From Myxococcales bacterium (GTDB lineage: Bacteria; Myxococcota_A; UBA9160; JALSIO01): a stretch of DNA of 13,144 nt. Below the pieces are notes generated by a model. The model had not been told where the DNA came from. It saw only the letters and a program-made list of their open reading frames with translations, and did no database searches. Numbering within the stretch: position 1 is the stretch's first letter; every line of letters starts with the position of its first letter. Shown here one piece after another: positions 3,486 through 12,978 of the stretch. Location: positions 1-13,144 of the forward strand of contig JALSIO010000613.1 in NCBI GenBank assembly GCA_026989995.1, written 5' to 3'. The position numbers were made by a program, and so were the translations under genes.

Positions 3486-3517
3486 CGGCCCGGTTTGTCC
3501 ATCCGGAGGTGAGCCCC

Positions 3518-4126
3518 GTGAAGCTCTACGACAGCGCCCTGGCGCCGAACCCCCGCCGGGTTCGCATCTTCCTCGCGGAGAAGGGCCTCGAGATCGAGAA
3601 GGTCCCCGTCGACCTGGCGAAGGCCGAGAACCGCAGCCCGGAGTTCCTGGCGAAGAACCCGCTGGGAGGCGTTCCGGTGCTGGAGCTCGACGACGGCACC
3701 TGCCTGGCCGAAACCGTGGCGATCTGTCGCTACTTCGAGGAGACCCGTCCGGATCCCCCGCTGATGGGAGTCGACGCCCTCGACCGGGCGCGGGTCGAGA
3801 TGTGGAACCGGCGCATGGAGTTCGAGGTCTTCCTCCCCATCGCGCAGGTCTTCCGCAACACCCACGACTTCTTCAAGGGGCGGATCCCCCAGGTGCCCGC
3901 GTGGGGTGAGGTGTGCCGGGAGGCGGCGGAGAAACGGCTCGCGTGGCTCGACGAGGTGCTCGGGGAGCGTCCGTTCATCGCCGGGGAGCGCTTCACCATC
4001 GCGGATATCACGGCGCTGTGTGGGATCGACTTCGGCCGCGTCACGGGGATCCGCATCGGGTCGGACCAGAAGAACCTGGCCCGTTGGCACGAGGCGGTGT
4101 CCGGACGTCCGAGCGCGGGGGCCTAG
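3518..4126 (+). CDS. glutathione S-transferase family protein
   Basis: 202 residues. I chose GTG 3518 (MKLYDS...) because GGAGGTGA at 3505-3512 is ideally spaced before it; the upstream in-frame GTG at 3509 lies inside that site. Residues 1-80 form the thioredoxin-like GST N-domain: PNPRRVRIFLAEKG (about 9-22), GGVPVLEL with the cis-Pro loop (about 52-59), and LAETVAICRYFEE (about 65-77) with the conserved E-T pair that contacts the gamma-glutamyl part of glutathione. The all-helical C-domain ends with FIAGERFTIADI (about 153-164), the N-capping and hydrophobic-staple motif. Length is usual for the family. Expected role: glutathione-dependent conjugation or detoxification in the cytoplasm; the substrate cannot be read from sequence. 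The gene is convergent with the selenoprotein gene, and the two stop codons share the palindrome CTAG. Confidence 0.9.
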   Translation: MKLYDSALAPNPRRVRIFLAEKGLEIEKVPVDLAKAENRSPEFLAKNPLGGVPVLELDDGTCLAETVAICRYFEETRPDPPLMGVDALDRARVEMWNRRMEFEVFLPIAQVFRNTHDFFKGRIPQVPAWGEVCREAAEKRLAWLDEVLGERPFIAGERFTIADITALCGIDFGRVTGIRIGSDQKNLARWHEAVSGRPSAGA

Positions 4127-5067
4127 CCGGGTCGGCCTGCGCCCGCCGCCGGGCCGGACGCCTTCCGACGGCCGCTCCGGGCCCCGTCCGCCCGGGCCTG
4201 GTTGGCCCGGCGCCGCTCGCCGAGCCGACGCAGCTCCTCGAGCCGCTCCGGATCGACCCGGGCGTAGCGCTCCCGCCAGGACTCGTCCTCCGACCAGCGG
4301 AAGGGCGCCTGCACGGTGGTGCGGGGAAGTCGGGCGCTTTCGAGCAGATCGAGGGCGTGCCCCACGATGGCCCGCTGCATGCCCCGGTCGTAGGGGCGCC
4401 CGCAGGGGTTCCCCAGCGGGAAGTCGCTGAAGAGCAGGCGCGGCACGCCGCACTCCTCCACGATGTCCCGGGCGGACCCGATCACCACGGTCGGGATCCC
4501 ATGCTCCTCGAGGTGGCGCGCGACCAGACTCACGGTCTGGTGGCAGACCGGTCAGAGGGGGACGAGGAGCGCCGCGTCGGCTCCGTCCTCGCGGCAGCGC
4601 CGCAGGACCTCCGGGGCGTCCTGCTCCAGGGTCCGGCGCTGGCTGTAGTCCGTGGGGACCCCGTGGAAGCGCGGCGCGAGGCCGGCGACGCGCCCCTCCC
4701 CGGCGAGCTCGGCGAGTGCGGCGAGGGGAAGGAAGGATTCCCGGTCGTCGGTGTGGGTGGACTCCCGGTCCCAGGCCAGGTGGGCGGTGTCGAGCCGCGC
4801 GGGGGGGTCGGCCGTGGAGCCGGACCAGACCTCGCGGTCTCCGCGGAGGACCCCGTCCACCGGTGCCTCGCCGCGCCACGGCGCGGCGGTGGTGATCACG
4901 GTGACCCGGCACTCCGGGAGCGGCTTCGGAAGGGGTGTGAAGGGCACCTCGTCGAAATGGGCCCAGCGGTAGGGCCGCTCATACCCCTGGGCGGCGTAGA
5001 ACTCCCGCGTGCGGTCGATGTAGCTCACCATCGTTCGGTGGGTGATCGGCCGGTTGGGCCCCGCCAT
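4123..5067 (-). CDS. selenoprotein, glycine/sarcosine/betaine/D-proline reductase B-like family (in-frame TGA = Sec)
   Basis: A 315-codon frame runs from ATG 5067 (GGGAGG 4 bases upstream) to TAG at 4125-4123, interrupted only by TGA at 4554-4552, codon 172. Both sides belong to one protein: the sequence reads ADAALLVPL-U-PVCHQTVSL, then IPTVVIGSARDIVE, CGVPRLLFSDFPLGNPCG and a helical tail. The VLLVPxUPxC...FPLG pattern is that of the GrdB/PrdB-like 'selenoprotein B family' found in many aerobic soil bacteria. U172 and C175 make a UxxC redox motif. A SECIS-like hairpin starts 10 bases after the TGA (separate entry). Earlier parts include DREVWSGSTADPP (about 77-89) and LAWDRESTHTDDRESFLPL (about 97-115). 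Classical GrdB/PrdB work in clostridial reductive cleavage of glycine or D-proline. Here the partner subunits are absent, so the substrate is unknown and a stand-alone redox or reductase role is inferred. Expression requires SelA/B/C/D encoded elsewhere. Confidence 0.85.
4523..4554 (-). promoter_or_regulatory. bacterial SECIS-like element with its UGA
   Basis: Directly after the TGA (4554-4552), the minus strand forms a perfect 7-bp stem: ACCAGAC (4541-4535) pairs with GTCTGGT (4529-4523) around the 5-base loop CGTGA (4534-4530). The apical loop contains G residues and begins about 17 bases after the UGA. That falls in the 16-37 base spacing known for SelB-dependent bacterial SECIS hairpins. 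An alternative 6-bp hairpin (GGTCTG 4549-4544 with CAGACC 4539-4534) shares bases with it and could compete. The hairpin lies in coding sequence and keeps the frame open. Confidence 0.75.
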
Positions 5068-5105
5068 CGCGCCTCCCTTCGATCCCGACCCGGGGCGTCC
5101 CGGGA

Positions 5106-8171: not shown

Positions 8172-11100
8172 ATGGCCGAACGGATTCCCGGGCCCCTCGC
8201 CGTCCTGGCGGCGGCCACCCTCGCGCTTGTCGCCGGCGCCGCCGGGGGGCAACCCCTTCCGGTCCCTCTGCCCACCTCCACGGGCTGCCTCGAGGCACCC
8301 TCCGGTGACTGCAACCGCGACTGGATGGCGGTCCTCGACGGCTCGGGCCTGATCCGCAACCGCCCCATCTCCCAGCTCGTCCTGCCCGGGTCGCACGACG
8401 CCGCCATGGTGACCGACGTGGAGGGCGCGGGGTACTCCTGCCAGTTCGGCATCTGCGAGAGCGCCGTCACCCAGGACCGGAACGTCTACCACCAGCTCGA
8501 ACGGGGAAGCCGCTACCTCGACCTCCGGTTCGCGTGGAACTGCCATCCCAAGGTCCAGGACTGGACCTCGTACCACAACATCTGGTTCACCGACTACCGC
8601 ATGCGGGACATCCTCTTCGACGGGGGTCGGGGCGTTCTGGCCTTTCTGGCCCGCAACCCGCGTGAGATCGTGATCCTCGACGTTCGCACCTACGACGGAG
8701 ACCCCTCCGGTGCCCAGACGCTCTGCGATCCGCTCGTCGGGCACTTCCGCCGGGAGTTCGATGCGATCTGCCGCCGCTTCGTGGACGAGAACTGGGGGAA
8801 GTTCATCCGCCCCACCGACATCCGGCGGGCAGCCTACCTGCGGGAGCCCGAACGCAACGGGGTGCATCCCCTGAACGACGCCGCCGCCCCCGTCCGGGAG
8901 GGGATGTCCGTCTGGGACCCGGGGGGCGTCTCCACCGTCCTCTCCCTTCGGGAGGGCGACCGCTACCAGAATCCGGGTCGCTTCGCCCCCACCTCCACGG
9001 TGGGCGACATCTGGGACCTGCCGGGTGGCCCCCAGATGATCGTCTTCTGGCCCGCGTGCGCCGACGCCTATCGGCGCCTCACCGGCCGGTCGGCGCCGTT
9101 CGAGGGGTGGACCCAGAAGACCTCGGCACCGCCCGAGCCGCCCGGAACGGTGCTCCCCACCACGATCAATGCCGACCTGCTCGGATACTACCCCCACTGG
9201 TGCTACTGGGAGTTCATGTTGGGCCGCATCGAGGAGGCGGTGCGGAAACGGCTCAAGGGAGCCGGCCGCAAGGATCAGACGGAGCGCGCCTTCGGTCTCT
9301 ACAACGTGTCGGTGGCGACCACCTACACCACGATCGCAGCGGACCAGGGCGGGCCGTGCGCCGTGGCGCCGCGTCCGGGACTCGCGGAGCAGGAGTGGCT
9401 GCTCGACGAGCTGCGGGATCGCTACGCCGCGGACGACCGCGGCAACCATCTCCAGGCGAACCTCAACATCCTGAACGGAGACTTTCTCGAGGACTCCGAT
9501 CTCCCCGAAGTCGCCATCGAGATGAACCAGATCGCCGTGCGGGACCTCTCCATCTCCCTCACCTCCGGGCGACTTCCGGATGGGACCACGTCGGTGCGCC
9601 TCGATTGCGGTACCGGAGCCGTTTCGGGGCAGCTGCTTCGGGTTCCGGAGCCCTACGTCCGGATCGAATCGGCTCCGGGTCGGTACGGACCTTTCCTCCC
9701 CCTCCTGGTTCCCGCTCCCCCGGACGGCCGCCGGGTGCTCGCCCGTCCGCAATACGCGGGCATTCCCCCCGTCGCGATCGACGGCGGCGGGCGCGCGGAG
9801 ATCCTGGTCGATCCGGCGCTCCCGCTCCTGGTTTCGGGCCTCGAGGCCTCGACCGCGGGATTCCCGGGGAGCGAGTTTCCCGGGACACCCGTCTTCGCGT
9901 TTACCGGCAAGAGGACGGAGACGTTCATCGGAACCTGCGTGAACTCCCGCGGGGTCGCCCTGCGCGACACCCTGACGGTCCAGGTTCCCGATCGGGATCC
10001 CCCGACGATCACCGTCGAGGCGTGCCCCTTCACCCCGGGGTGTCCGGTGCCCTACGTCGCGGGGACCTGGAGCGCCGATCCGGTGGTGCTTACGCCGCAT
10101 TGCGACGACGATTCCCGCGGTGTGATCTGCTCCGACCCCATCGTCCGCAACTCCGACGGCGTCTACCCGAGCCATGCGTTCACCGCCACGGACGTCGAAG
10201 GGCGCACGGCCACGGTCGATTTCGGAGAGGTTCGGATCGATGCGACGCCGCCCTCGGTGCGCGTGGAGCTCGTTTCCGGCGGCCGCACCTACTTCCCGGG
10301 AAACTGGACTCGGTTTCCCGTACAGGCGACCCCCGTGTGCTCCGATTCGGCCTCGGGCGTGGCCGACTGCGACCCGCCCCGGTCGCTGGAGGCCGAGGGC
10401 GTCTCCTCGGCGAGCTTCGCCGGGCGGGACGTCGCGGGCAACGTCGCGATCGCCACGGTCGCCGACATCTGGATCGACCGGACGCCACCGACGATCGGCG
10501 TCCTCGCCGAGACCCGAAGTGGACCCTACGCCACGGGGAGCTGGGTCGCGGAGCCGGTGACGGTGCGCTTCACCTGCGAGGATCTGCCCGCGGGGTCCGC
10601 GTCGGGCCTCGCAGTCTGCCCCGATCCCATCCCGATCTCCGATGGCGACCTTTCCGTGGCGGGCGAAGCGCGGGATGTGGCCGGGAACACGGCGAGGGCC
10701 TCGGTCCGGGTTCGCGTGGACACCCGCCCCCCGTCCCTCGAGGCGCGCATGCGTTCGGGCGGGGCCCCCTACACGCCCGGGACCTGGGCCAACCAGCCCG
10801 TGACGGTGGATTTCCCCTGCCGCGACGAGGGCGTGGGTCTCGAGGGCGGATGTCCCGCGCCGGTGACCTTCGCCTCGAGCGGTGCCGACCAGGGCGTGAC
10901 CGTCTCGGTGCGCGATCTCCTGGGCCACGAGGCCGTTCTCGCGGTGGACGGCATCTTCGTGGATCGGATTCCGCCCACCGTGACCCTCGAGGGAGCCGGC
11001 GAGTACGGGATCCTGGATCTCGTCTCCATCCGCTGCAGCGCCGCCGACGGGGAATCGGGGATCGCGCACAGCGCGTGCGCGGACGCCACCCGTCCGGCCT

Positions 11101-11447
11101 GGGAACTCGGCGTGGGCACCACCACCTTCACGGCTTCGGCCACCGATCGGGCGGGCAATGTCGGGACCGCGACCGCGTCGGTGCGGGTGGTGGCGACCCA
11201 CCGGGATCTCTGCGTCCTCGCCACGCGCTTCAACGACGGGTCCCGCGGCAAGGCCCGTGCCCTGTGCAACCGGCTTCGGGCGGCGGAGCGCGCGGCGGCG
11301 CGGGGACGCCCCGATCTGCACGCGCGGAGGATGACGCGCTTCGTGCGCTTCGTGGACCTCGCGGTGCGCCGGGGCTGGCTCACGGCCGCCGAGGGGGACG
11401 TGCTGTCGGCCGCGGGGCGGGCCCTCGCGGCGGCAAGCGGCGCCTGA
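8172..11447 (+). CDS. secreted PI-specific phospholipase C-like protein with five Ig-like repeats and FIMAH-like C-terminus
   Basis: 1091 residues from ATG 8172; the frame is open far upstream, but that part is antisense/off-frame to the regulator gene. A signal peptide (1 to about 26, GPLAVLAAATLALVAGAAGG) is followed by a PLC-X-like domain (about 55-450). SQLVLPGSHDAAM places H75-D76 like H32-D33 of Bacillus PI-PLC, RYLDLR places D117 and R119 like D67 and R69, and H135 in SYHN like H82. Residues 455-605 are a beta-rich linker. Five units of about 80 residues follow (607-1007), then a helical domain (about 1012-1091) resembling FIMAH domains. Expected role: extracellular phosphodiesterase on PI, GPI-like or related phosphodiester substrates, with the repeats as spacer or binding modules. 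There is no LPXTG, PEP-CTERM or type IX signal, so how it is retained is unclear. Catalytic competence is likely but specificity is not readable; eukaryote-like PI substrates are speculative. Confidence 0.85.
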   Translation: MAERIPGPLAVLAAATLALVAGAAGGQPLPVPLPTSTGCLEAPSGDCNRDWMAVLDGSGLIRNRPISQLVLPGSHDAAMVTDVEGAGYSCQFGICESAVTQDRNVYHQLERGSRYLDLRFAWNCHPKVQDWTSYHNIWFTDYRMRDILFDGGRGVLAFLARNPREIVILDVRTYDGDPSGAQTLCDPLVGHFRREFDAICRRFVDENWGKFIRPTDIRRAAYLREPERNGVHPLNDAAAPVREGMSVWDPGGVSTVLSLREGDRYQNPGRFAPTSTVGDIWDLPGGPQMIVFWPACADAYRRLTGRSAPFEGWTQKTSAPPEPPGTVLPTTINADLLGYYPHWCYWEFMLGRIEEAVRKRLKGAGRKDQTERAFGLYNVSVATTYTTIAADQGGPCAVAPRPGLAEQEWLLDELRDRYAADDRGNHLQANLNILNGDFLEDSDLPEVAIEMNQIAVRDLSISLTSGRLPDGTTSVRLDCGTGAVSGQLLRVPEPYVRIESAPGRYGPFLPLLVPAPPDGRRVLARPQYAGIPPVAIDGGGRAEILVDPALPLLVSGLEASTAGFPGSEFPGTPVFAFTGKRTETFIGTCVNSRGVALRDTLTVQVPDRDPPTITVEACPFTPGCPVPYVAGTWSADPVVLTPHCDDDSRGVICSDPIVRNSDGVYPSHAFTATDVEGRTATVDFGEVRIDATPPSVRVELVSGGRTYFPGNWTRFPVQATPVCSDSASGVADCDPPRSLEAEGVSSASFAGRDVAGNVAIATVADIWIDRTPPTIGVLAETRSGPYATGSWVAEPVTVRFTCEDLPAGSASGLAVCPDPIPISDGDLSVAGEARDVAGNTARASVRVRVDTRPPSLEARMRSGGAPYTPGTWANQPVTVDFPCRDEGVGLEGGCPAPVTFASSGADQGVTVSVRDLLGHEAVLAVDGIFVDRIPPTVTLEGAGEYGILDLVSIRCSAADGESGIAHSACADATRPAWELGVGTTTFTASATDRAGNVGTATASVRVVATHRDLCVLATRFNDGSRGKARALCNRLRAAERAAARGRPDLHARRMTRFVRFVDLAVRRGWLTAAEGDVLSAAGRALAAASGA
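9990..11192 (+). repeat. five tandem Ig-like domain repeats within the phospholipase-like protein
   Basis: Unit starts are marked by a D-x(1-2)-PP strand at residues 607/609 (DPPTITV), 690 (DATPPSVRV), 769 (DRTPPTIGV), 850 (DTRPPSLEA) and 931 (DRIPPTVTL), a spacing of 79-83 residues. Units 1-4 carry Y-x-x-G-(T/N/S)-W followed by PV. All five carry a cysteine pair 8-15 residues apart, suggesting one disulfide per domain. Most end with a D-x-x-G-N or similar turn. The layout matches HYR/bacterial Ig-like 'DxTPP' domains of secreted proteins. Repeats are diverged at DNA level, so this is old duplication rather than a recent expansion. Confidence 0.8.
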
Positions 11448-11519: not shown

Positions 11520-11717
11520 CTAGCCCTCGCCCTCGAGGGTGATGGCGTCCTCCGGGCAGTTGGCCTCGCCGAGGCGGGCCTGCTCCTCGAGCTCCGGGGG
11601 AACTGTCTCGAAGCGGAGGCGGCAGTGGCCGCGCTCGTCCTCCTCGAAGACATCCGGGGCGAGCTCGTAGCAGCGGCCGTGGCCGACGCAGGCCTCCCGG
11701 TCGAGACGGATCTTCAT
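11520..11717 (-). CDS. small [3Fe-4S] ferredoxin, likely electron donor to the adjacent P450
   Basis: 65 residues from ATG 11717, with GGAGGAG just upstream. The start MKIRLDREACVGHGRC shows C10-x5-C16, and a third ligand lies in ANCPEDAI (Cys 55). The pattern CxxxxxC...CP, with His13 in the place of a fourth cysteine, is that of P450-associated single-cluster [3Fe-4S] ferredoxins of actinobacteria and others (SoyB/FdxE-like). An additional cysteine at 32 is not in a ligand motif. Acidic composition fits docking to a P450. The gene is 46 bases downstream of the P450 gene on the same strand, so the two are almost certainly co-transcribed. Role: one-electron transfer in the cytoplasm from a ferredoxin reductase not present here. 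Confidence 0.9.
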   Translation of the reverse strand: MKIRLDREACVGHGRCYELAPDVFEEDERGHCRLRFETVPPELEEQARLGEANCPEDAITLEGEG

Positions 11718-11763: not shown

Positions 11764-12978
11764 TCAGGCCTCCGGGCCGAAGACGAGCGGCAGGTGGCGG
11801 ACTTCCCGGATCCCGGGAGTGTAGAGGGGAACCTCGCCGGGGGCGATGCGGTACTCCGGGATCCGCCGATGCCACTCCTCGAGCGCCACCCGCAGCTCCA
11901 TCCGCGCGAGGTGGGAGCCGAGGCAGCGATGAGGTCCGGCGCCGAAGGCGATGTGCTTGTTCCGCTCCCGGTCGAAGTCCACCTGGTCCGCCCGCGCAAA
12001 GCGCTGTTCGTCGGTGTTGGCCGCGCCGAGCAGCAGCGTGACGAGCTGCCCCTTCTCGAGCTGCACGCCGGCGACCTCCACATCCCGCTTGAGCACCCGG
12101 GGCACCGCGGTCACGGGGGTCTCGTAGCGCAGCAGCTCCTCCACGGCGGCGTCGATGCGCGCGGGATCCTCCACGAGCCGGCGGCGGTGGGCCGGGTTGG
12201 AGGCCAGGAAGGCGATGCTGCACCCGAGGGTGGCCGTCACCGTGTCGAGGCCGGCGAGCAGCAGCAGGAAGCAGATGTCGAGCATCTCCTCGCGGGTGAG
12301 CCGGCGCCCGTCGAGCTCGGTGGTCGTGAGCCAGGTGAGCAGGTCCTCCCGGGGGCGGTCGAGCCGCTCGTCGAGGGCCTGGTCGAAGTAGGCGTAGATG
12401 CGCCGACCGGTCTGCGTGCGGAGCTCCGCGGCCCGGTCGGGCGGCGCCGGAGGCCGGATGATCCCGTCCTTGAGCTCGAGGAAGAGGTCGAGCTCCTCCG
12501 CGGGGAGGCCGAGCAGCCGGAGGAAGGCGGTGCAGGGGAGGGGCACGGCGAACTCCCGGTGGAACTCGCAGGATCCGCGCCCGGCGAAGCCCTCGATCAG
12601 GTCGCGGGCGTGGCGGCGGATGTCCGGTTCGAGGTCCTGCATGCGCTTCCGGGAGAAGAGGGGGTCGAGGAGCTTCCGGAAGCGCGTCTGGCGGGGCGGG
12701 TCGATCTGCTGGGGAATCATGGGGCGCTCGGTGCCGAGGGCCATCTCGAGGTCCATCTCCGAGGAGAAGATCTCGGGGTGCCGCAGCGCCCACATCACGT
12801 CCTCGTAGCGCGAGATCACCGGGTTTCCGATGAACGACTGGCGCGCCACCGGGAGCTCCGCCCGCAGCCTCGCGTAGACGGCGTGGGGACAGCGGGCGAA
12901 GTCGGCGTCGAAGAGGTCGACCTCGCCGGTCGCGGGGTCCGGGTTGGGCTTCGGGGTCTCGGTCTCGGCGGTGGCCAT
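11764..12978 (-). CDS. cytochrome P450 (class I, soluble)
   Basis: 404 residues from ATG 12978, with GGGGAGGAG upstream; the usual size of bacterial soluble P450s. Visible signatures are: QIDPPRQTRFRKLL in the C-helix region (91-104, Gln where most have Glu and His), the I-helix oxygen-activation motif AGLDT (242-246), the ExxR motif E281-LL-R284, and the haem loop FGAGPHRCLG with the thiolate ligand Cys352. No membrane helix, so cytoplasmic. It performs NAD(P)H-dependent mono-oxygenation with electrons passed by the neighbouring [3Fe-4S] ferredoxin. The overall pattern (DLFDADFARCPHAVYARLR start, LLLLAGLDTVTATL) is like CYP families acting on terpenoids, fatty acids or aromatic acids, but the substrate cannot be named. 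It lies divergent from the gene starting at 13102. Confidence 0.95.
   Translation of the reverse strand: MATAETETPKPNPDPATGEVDLFDADFARCPHAVYARLRAELPVARQSFIGNPVISRYEDVMWALRHPEIFSSEMDLEMALGTERPMIPQQIDPPRQTRFRKLLDPLFSRKRMQDLEPDIRRHARDLIEGFAGRGSCEFHREFAVPLPCTAFLRLLGLPAEELDLFLELKDGIIRPPAPPDRAAELRTQTGRRIYAYFDQALDERLDRPREDLLTWLTTTELDGRRLTREEMLDICFLLLLAGLDTVTATLGCSIAFLASNPAHRRRLVEDPARIDAAVEELLRYETPVTAVPRVLKRDVEVAGVQLEKGQLVTLLLGAANTDEQRFARADQVDFDRERNKHIAFGAGPHRCLGSHLARMELRVALEEWHRRIPEYRIAPGEVPLYTPGIREVRHLPLVFGPEA

Follow-up and report, generated by a model that had tools for sequence, protein, structure and literature searches.

The window, by which we mean the whole 13,144-nucleotide stretch of Myxococcales DNA that was analysed, carries a gene that in all likelihood (with a probability of roughly 0.88) encodes a selenoprotein and, at the same time, a member of a stand-alone branch of PrdB-like proteins. 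That its in-frame UGA is recoded as selenocysteine (Sec, U), as proposed in a preliminary description made from the sequence, is borne out by the occurrence of Cys or Sec at the same alignment column, by a hairpin directly downstream and by the comparison with relatives. The interest of the protein lies in its stand-alone architecture, in the existence of further Sec clades around it and in the fact that its substrate and reductant are undefined.

A gene read through an in-frame UGA

Translation of positions 5067-4123 with TGA read as U yields 314 residues with a sole U at position 172 (PLUPVCHQTVSL), after which 142 sense codons follow before a TAG. The joined protein reads ...ALLVPL-U-PVCHQTVSLVARHLE... 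around this residue and contains DFPLGNPCG further on (see Table 1 for all features). Ordinary gene calling yields two pieces, a 5' ORF terminating at 4552 and a 3' ORF of 136 aa that starts at 4533. The earlier claim of one protein running through a single TGA at 4554-4552 within a UxxC motif thus held in frame, coordinates and motif alike, and the GST, P450 and GMC genes that it placed in the window were confirmed by Pfam.

Table 1. Features of the selenoprotein gene and its convergent neighbour (positions in the window)
Feature	Position	Strand	Remarks
Stand-alone PrdB-like selenoprotein gene	4123..5067	-	314 codons including one recoded TGA; TAG stop at 4125-4123
In-frame TGA read as selenocysteine, U172	4552..4554	-	TGA at this column in relatives, Cys in listed database homologues
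TGC, resolving Cys175 (putative role) of the U-P-V-C motif	4543..4545	-	Invariant in two family alignments
Ribosome-binding site GGGAGG	5072..5077	-	4 nt upstream of the ATG at 5067-5065; read in the sequence
Bacterial SECIS hairpin (predicted) ACCAGAC-CGUGA-GUCUGGU	4523..4541	-	Fold, codon fixation, pair counts, decay in Cys genes
Neighbouring glutathione S-transferase (GST)	3509..4126	+	Pfam GST_N/GST_C; link to the selenoprotein gene no more than suggestive

According to Pfam, the selenoprotein gene is surrounded by the GST gene, which is convergent with it and overlaps it by 4 nt (4123-4126), by a PEP-CTERM protein gene on the far side, and by genes for a P450 with a ferredoxin and for a GMC oxidoreductase. 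On the minus strand, 11520-11711 and 11764-12978 together comprise the P450 gene and, behind it, the small 4Fe-4S ferredoxin gene (Fer4_15/Fer4_13), whose products likely form a P450 redox pair. A 1091-aa protein encoded at 8172-11447 on the plus strand matches bacterial Ig-like domains and a C-terminal FIMAH domain; its N-terminal third we take to resemble a PI-PLC-type hydrolase.

Cysteine and selenocysteine share one column

The window protein (P0001) matched 3791 database proteins. The 120 that were listed are 57-63% identical to it over 86-100% of the query, and as their alignments run straight through the TGA, the match of the two fragments is not a matter of chance. All 120 carry Cys at the TGA column, in 119 cases within CP(V/I)CHQ and in P0030 within CPVCYQ. 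The database consists of conventionally predicted proteins, in which Sec members would be truncated, and it can therefore show Cys forms only.

The Sec forms were found at the nucleotide level. Family members occur in 70 of the 147 genomes that were searched completely (the own genome being among the 147), and a TGA is positioned exactly at the U172 column in each of the 29 relative loci read. A scan of named genomes with six exact query peptides, none of them spanning the motif, gave 128 loci, the best 80 of which were kept and all have the TGA at the column (80/80); the two sets of loci overlap. The records of these 80 are titled Deltaproteobacteria, Myxococcota, Burkholderiales, Reyranella, Acidimicrobiia, SAR324 and Syntrophaceae, among others. 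Exact query peptides such as FHGVPTDY miss the Cys clade (FHGVPTEY), so that the 80/80 denotes consistency and not a rarity of Cys. Downstream of the TGA the frame stays open in the relatives and the invariant residues (the DFPLGNP region) are kept. The column thus holds Cys (in the listed database proteins) or Sec (in the TGA loci) and no unrelated residue, and a sequencing error for TGC or TGT, which had been named as a possible refutation, is untenable because the same TGA recurs in many independent genomes.

The TGA genes are also present in isolates, i.e. Quisquiliibacterium transsilvanicum DSM 29781 and Vineibacter terrae CC-CFT640. In the order of Vineibacter terrae (which includes a Reyranella record and which we take to be aerobic) 74 of 76 genomes have matches, and the matches listed mostly contain one TGA. 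One in-frame TGA is also present in many of the selD genes of this order, so that SelD is there probably a selenoprotein as well. The contig of one Vineibacter terrae locus (L254, genome G148) holds two family matches with the same motif about 6 kb apart, the second of which is restricted to the portion from query residue 158-159 onward. Two environmental-looking MAG records are titled Klebsiella pneumoniae (L096) and Bordetella parapertussis (L107), species names that are probably mislabelled.

A hairpin kept in Sec genes and degraded in Cys genes

Bacterial SECIS elements are hairpins located just 3' of the UGA with a G/U-bearing apical loop. The hairpin in the window has this position and such a loop: it spans nucleotides 14-32 counted from the U of the UGA (window 4541-4523) and has 7 bp, formed by 14-20 and 26-32. 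Taken as a single sequence it is not remarkably stable (z -0.36; 61 of 200 shuffles reach the same stability or better), and it was the comparison of 97 genes that revealed it. Over these 97 non-identical loci the codons after the TGA are nearly fixed as CAG ACC GTG AGT CTG. Of the 85 genes with Ser at codon +8, 81 use AGT there, compared with 88 of the 1147 Ser codons at other places in these genes (median GC 0.65; kinship ignored). The helix 14-20/26-32 is paired in 96.4% of the cells of the 97-gene comparison, against at most 31.7% for slid controls, kinship again not being taken into account. Double-change cells number 24 vs a shuffled mean of 3.5 (0 of 500 shuffles as high, likewise irrespective of kinship), and two of the five covariation measures are not above the shuffles (102 and 91 of 500 as high). 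The compensatory changes include CAG..CTG to CAA..TTG, ACC/AGT to TCC/GGA and CAC/GTC to CAT/ATC; since the latter two also alter residues (HQTVSLV to HQSVGLI), the protein letters follow the RNA helix.

The Cys genes provide the counterpart. In the order of Vineibacter terrae, the 39 TGA genes read keep 7/7 pairs (37 genes) or 6/7 (2 genes), and the six full-length listed matches without a stop are Cys genes that have 4 or 5 of the 7 pairs. The plasmid-borne Cys genes of Roseomonas and Haematobacter have 4/7 pairs each, and the Cys gene of locus L222 encodes the unchanged peptide CPVCHQTVSLVARH by different codons, with a degraded hairpin. The preliminary description had noted a SECIS-like hairpin at the proper distance; it is indeed present at +14 to +32, is kept across 97 genes and is degraded in the Cys genes, and we conclude from these comparisons of sequences that it is under selection. 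The pairs of Sec and Cys genes within one order constitute a clean natural experiment on the loss of a SECIS element.

The selenocysteine machinery

As to the sel genes expected in the same genome, selA (500.9 bits) and selB (289.9 bits; a full-length 652-aa ORF overlapping an ORF read as serS) are present in the own assembly, a MAG of 824 contigs that is 89.9% complete, and selC and selD were not found in it. The best tRNA-Sec candidate reached 41.5 bits vs a cut-off of 47, ARAGORN identified the best two candidates as tRNA-Ser, and six others that were read sit at other ordinary tRNAs; for selD, nothing exceeded the cut-off in this 89.9%-complete MAG and the best match resembles ThiL. These two genes, not found in a fragmented MAG, are the sole weak point of the Sec reading.

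Over the 147 genomes the gene and the machinery go together. Among the 70 genomes with the gene, selA was found in 69 (E <= 1e-30), selB in 58, tRNA-Sec in 60 and at least two of the three in 65, vs 41, 36 and 33 (selA, selB and tRNA-Sec, respectively) for the 77 genomes without it; the association between the gene and selA has a Fisher p of 1.5e-11 when kinship is ignored. SelD was found in 107 of the 147 genomes. Two tRNA-Sec matches above the cut-off occur within one assembly in G008 (contig C140) and in G013 (contigs C29 and C192).

A branch related to, but distinct from, PrdB and GrdB

The relation to PrdB and GrdB that had been read from the sequence was substantiated by profile comparison: hhalign aligns the window protein with PrdB of Peptoclostridium at a probability of 99.7%, with the Sec columns in register. 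The homology extends over 214 columns, with UGTCH in PrdB (TIGR04483; Peptoclostridium, Terrisporobacter) facing UPVCH in the window protein and the conserved motifs in the same order. Unlike PrdB, the window protein is longer at both ends (314 vs about 238 aa), and it is only 30% identical to it; moreover, prdB of Terrisporobacter is directly preceded by prdA and prdC, whereas the own assembly yielded no gene with PF09338, the domain of the pyruvoyl partner PrdA/GrdE. TIGR04483 is the best NCBIfam model for P0001, with 90 bits vs a curated cut-off of 300 (PrdB of Peptoclostridium itself scores 310). Similarity to GrdB/GrdF/GrdH (PF07355, TIGR01917/01918) is weak and confined to their C-terminal part with the UxxC region; the window protein differs in being some 120 residues shorter, in staying below the cut-offs and in having no GrdE partner that could be found. 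On TIGR01918 it scores 31.9 bits vs a curated cut-off of 65.45 (the sister-clade member L042 scores 67.0), and Pfam gave no match for P0001 up to E 0.01, PF07355 included; on the latter model (gathering threshold 22 bits) the Cys homologue P0075 scores 18.8 bits and L042 passes with 49.4.

In a phylogeny with 37 rows, a branch with 97/94 support sets two PrdB rows and a single GrdB row apart from 34 stand-alone rows; the root is a midpoint root for drawing, the PrdB/GrdB side comprises these three rows only, and the row of GrdB is a long one. Several clades with an in-frame TGA make up part of the stand-alone side, i.e. UPVCHQT (to which the window gene belongs), UPVCHQS, UPLDHQT, UPMC[HN]Q and UPxCTR, of which UPVCHQS is closer to PrdB by score (169 bits). 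Within the UPVCHQT clade, Cys versions appear at two separate positions, next to Sec members in both cases, which implies at least two exchanges between Sec and Cys, in whichever direction. Single genomes contain up to 8 family matches (G159; 7 in G083). Paralogues from related genomes (L255, L256) read UPLDHQT, i.e. their TGA-encoded position lacks the resolving Cys (UxxD), and would therefore require a different catalytic cycle. An assignment of the window protein to PrdB proper was considered and rejected, given the 90 bits, the separate branch and the lack of a PF09338 match in the own assembly.

A stand-alone gene without a conserved neighbourhood

The PF09338 model recognises the true PrdA of Terrisporobacter (79.7 bits), and it found no such gene in 145 of the 147 genomes searched, the own, incomplete assembly among them. 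The exceptions are G053 and G061, in both of which a distant match to P0001 is located on the same contig; as 14 named control genomes gave no PF09338 match, these two finds are the only positive control of the search. The contigs (C117 of G053 and C348 of G061) combine a GrdE/PrdA-type gene with a GrdB-type match and are probably true glycine-reductase-type operons. The description of the window gene as standing alone is accordingly upheld.

Across the 80 loci, no conserved neighbouring gene was found. Alpha/beta hydrolases are the most frequent among the immediate neighbours (8 of 135), followed by CoA-ligase-like proteins, acyl-CoA dehydrogenases and alcohol dehydrogenases with at most 5 each. 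The GST beside the gene, which had been pointed out in the window, is real but recurs beside the gene in a few relatives only: a GST about 45% identical to it adjoins the gene, in other orientations, in two further genomes (L021; L022, identical in location to L090), L105 has another GST upstream, and L101 has two GSTs two and three genes away. This recurrence is no more than suggestive. On a plasmid of Roseomonas haemaphysalidis (L169), the Cys homologue and a gene annotated as protein adenylyltransferase SelO are convergent.

Structure, proposed mechanism and competing readings

In an AlphaFold2 model (pLDDT 88.6) of Rossmann-like alpha/beta arrangement, residue 172 is located right before a helix (173-188) and after a strand (165-169); Cys175 and His176 are invariant in the alignments used. 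A Foldseek search with the model gave no match at E <= 0.001, and a search by sequence found no relative of solved structure.

The protein is likely a Sec/Cys reductase, the reaction of which we infer by analogy, together with catalysis, substrate class and reductant. In the cell, SelB would deliver Sec-tRNA to the UGA at codon 172, guided by the hairpin at nucleotides 14-32. Sec172, at the N-terminus of a helix in the Rossmann-like domain, may then act as a selenolate, attacking an electrophilic atom in a small organic molecule and expelling a leaving group in the manner of PrdB, GrdB and FarB; by homology with these three proteins, the atom attacked would be a carbon bearing the leaving group. 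Cys175 could resolve the adduct to a selenenyl-sulfide, which would be reduced by a general cellular thiol system (thioredoxin or glutathione). The reaction would proceed without the pyruvoyl subunit (PrdA/GrdE) that the amino-acid reductases use. In view of this missing subunit, binding of the substrate as a Schiff base is improbable, which would make acids, esters, halides, ethers, CoA esters or glutathione conjugates likelier substrates than amino acids. We put this mechanism of carbon-heteroatom reduction forward as a tentative proposal, with odds somewhat below even.

A doubtful but serious competitor is that the UxxC motif reduces disulfides, sulfenic acids or peroxides instead of a carbon-heteroatom bond, i.e. 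that the protein has a general role in handling thiols or peroxides. The position of the motif at the start of a helix, the existence of Cys versions and the spread over varied bacteria without a conserved metabolic neighbour would agree with such a role. The points against it are all indirect: the protein is homologous to PrdB, which is a subunit of a carbon-nitrogen reductase, the motifs conserved beyond UxxC and the up to 8 matches per genome suggest distinct small substrates, and one clade (UxxD) lacks the resolving Cys altogether. Very improbable is a true D-proline or glycine reductase B subunit with its PrdA/GrdE partner in the missing tenth of the MAG: although the hhalign probability to PrdB is high, PF09338 occurs in 2 and the gene in 70 of the same 147 genomes, the PrdB score stays far below its cut-off, and the protein falls outside the PrdB/GrdB branch of the tree (97/94 with midpoint root and three PrdB/GrdB rows). 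Hardly credible is a TGA that is a real stop, in a decayed gene or by sequencing error, leaving two fragments or a pseudogene; gene callers would indeed end at the TGA, and neither selC nor selD turned up in the MAG, but the TGA is kept in 29/29 relatives and 80/80 named-genome loci with an open frame and invariant residues (DFPLGNP) behind it, and the hairpin appears to be under selection. Decoding of the TGA as another residue such as Trp, by a changed code or a suppressor, would explain the open frame and nothing beyond it and can be dismissed, given Cys and not Trp at the column in the listed homologues, the conserved hairpin just 3' of the TGA, the presence of selA and selB, and some relatives that appear to terminate at a plain TGA stop.

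Beyond the stand-alone selenoprotein itself, we regard as improbable, though worth stating, a wider generalisation: the window protein may belong to a large superfamily of single-subunit selenoenzymes with at least five Sec clades (the five motifs listed above) and up to 8 matches per genome, which would cleave carbon-heteroatom bonds reductively and without a pyruvoyl partner in mostly aerobic soil and water bacteria, with thioredoxin or glutathione as the source of electrons and, in certain genomes, with glutathione conjugates from the adjacent GST as substrates. It would have been hidden by the split at the UGA and by proline or glycine reductase labels.

Relation to described systems

The preliminary description needs correcting in that such proteins are not rare. 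UxxC 'PrdB' has been counted among the commonest selenoproteins in surface-ocean metagenomes since 2005 (PMC1088965, PMC2398784). With 42 genes, a UxxC 'Proline reductase PrdB' ranked third in abundance among the families of the Sargasso Sea (PMC1088965), the GOS data comprised 235 Sec and 110 Cys sequences (PMC2398784), and a 2021 re-analysis assigned 6.4% of selenoprotein genes to proline reductase (PMC9402790). These proteins resemble the window protein as UxxC selenoproteins abundant in surface water. Members of the window family occur in sequence records with the titles marine actinobacterium, Acidimicrobiaceae and SAR324 (L159, L160, L164, L165, L168). Likened by their description, the Sargasso/GOS proteins are very probably of the same family, but in the sections consulted they are treated as proline reductase, with partner and phylogeny undiscussed. 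The plasmid-encoded proteins of the alphaproteobacteria Roseomonas and Haematobacter, annotated as 'Glycine/sarcosine/betaine reductase selenoprotein B family protein', also belong to this family (43-45% identity to a Bradyrhizobium query, CP(V/I)CHQT) but have Cys for Sec and the degraded hairpin (4/7 pairs). Given the Sargasso, GOS and 2021 counts and these annotations, there is nothing new in a PrdB-like protein with Sec in organisms other than amino-acid fermenters; in the literature searched, which included parts of the cited papers, we found no account of a separate, partner-less branch with several Sec clades.

In the portions consulted, FarB of Synergistota is a GrdB-like selenoprotein proposed for the reduction of fluoroacetate, i.e. 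for C-F cleavage (PMC10838667). Its proposed target, a carbon to which a leaving group is attached, resembles that of the mechanism considered here; unlike the window gene, for which no such partner was found, the FarB gene comes from an anaerobe and shares its operon with a GrdE homologue. By analogy, FarB suggests that the superfamily may not be tied to amino acids. Concerning oxygen, the parts consulted of a 2026 review state that selenoproteins are rarely retained by aerobic bacteria (PMC13188914), and those of a 2016 genome survey that Sec use is about equal in aerobes and anaerobes (PMC5029168).

If the stand-alone reading is true, the labels 'proline reductase PrdB' and 'glycine reductase' on many such proteins are misleading, because the subunit that enables these reactions was not found in 145 of the 147 genomes. 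With isolates at hand, the role of 'PrdB' in water and soil bacteria is directly testable.
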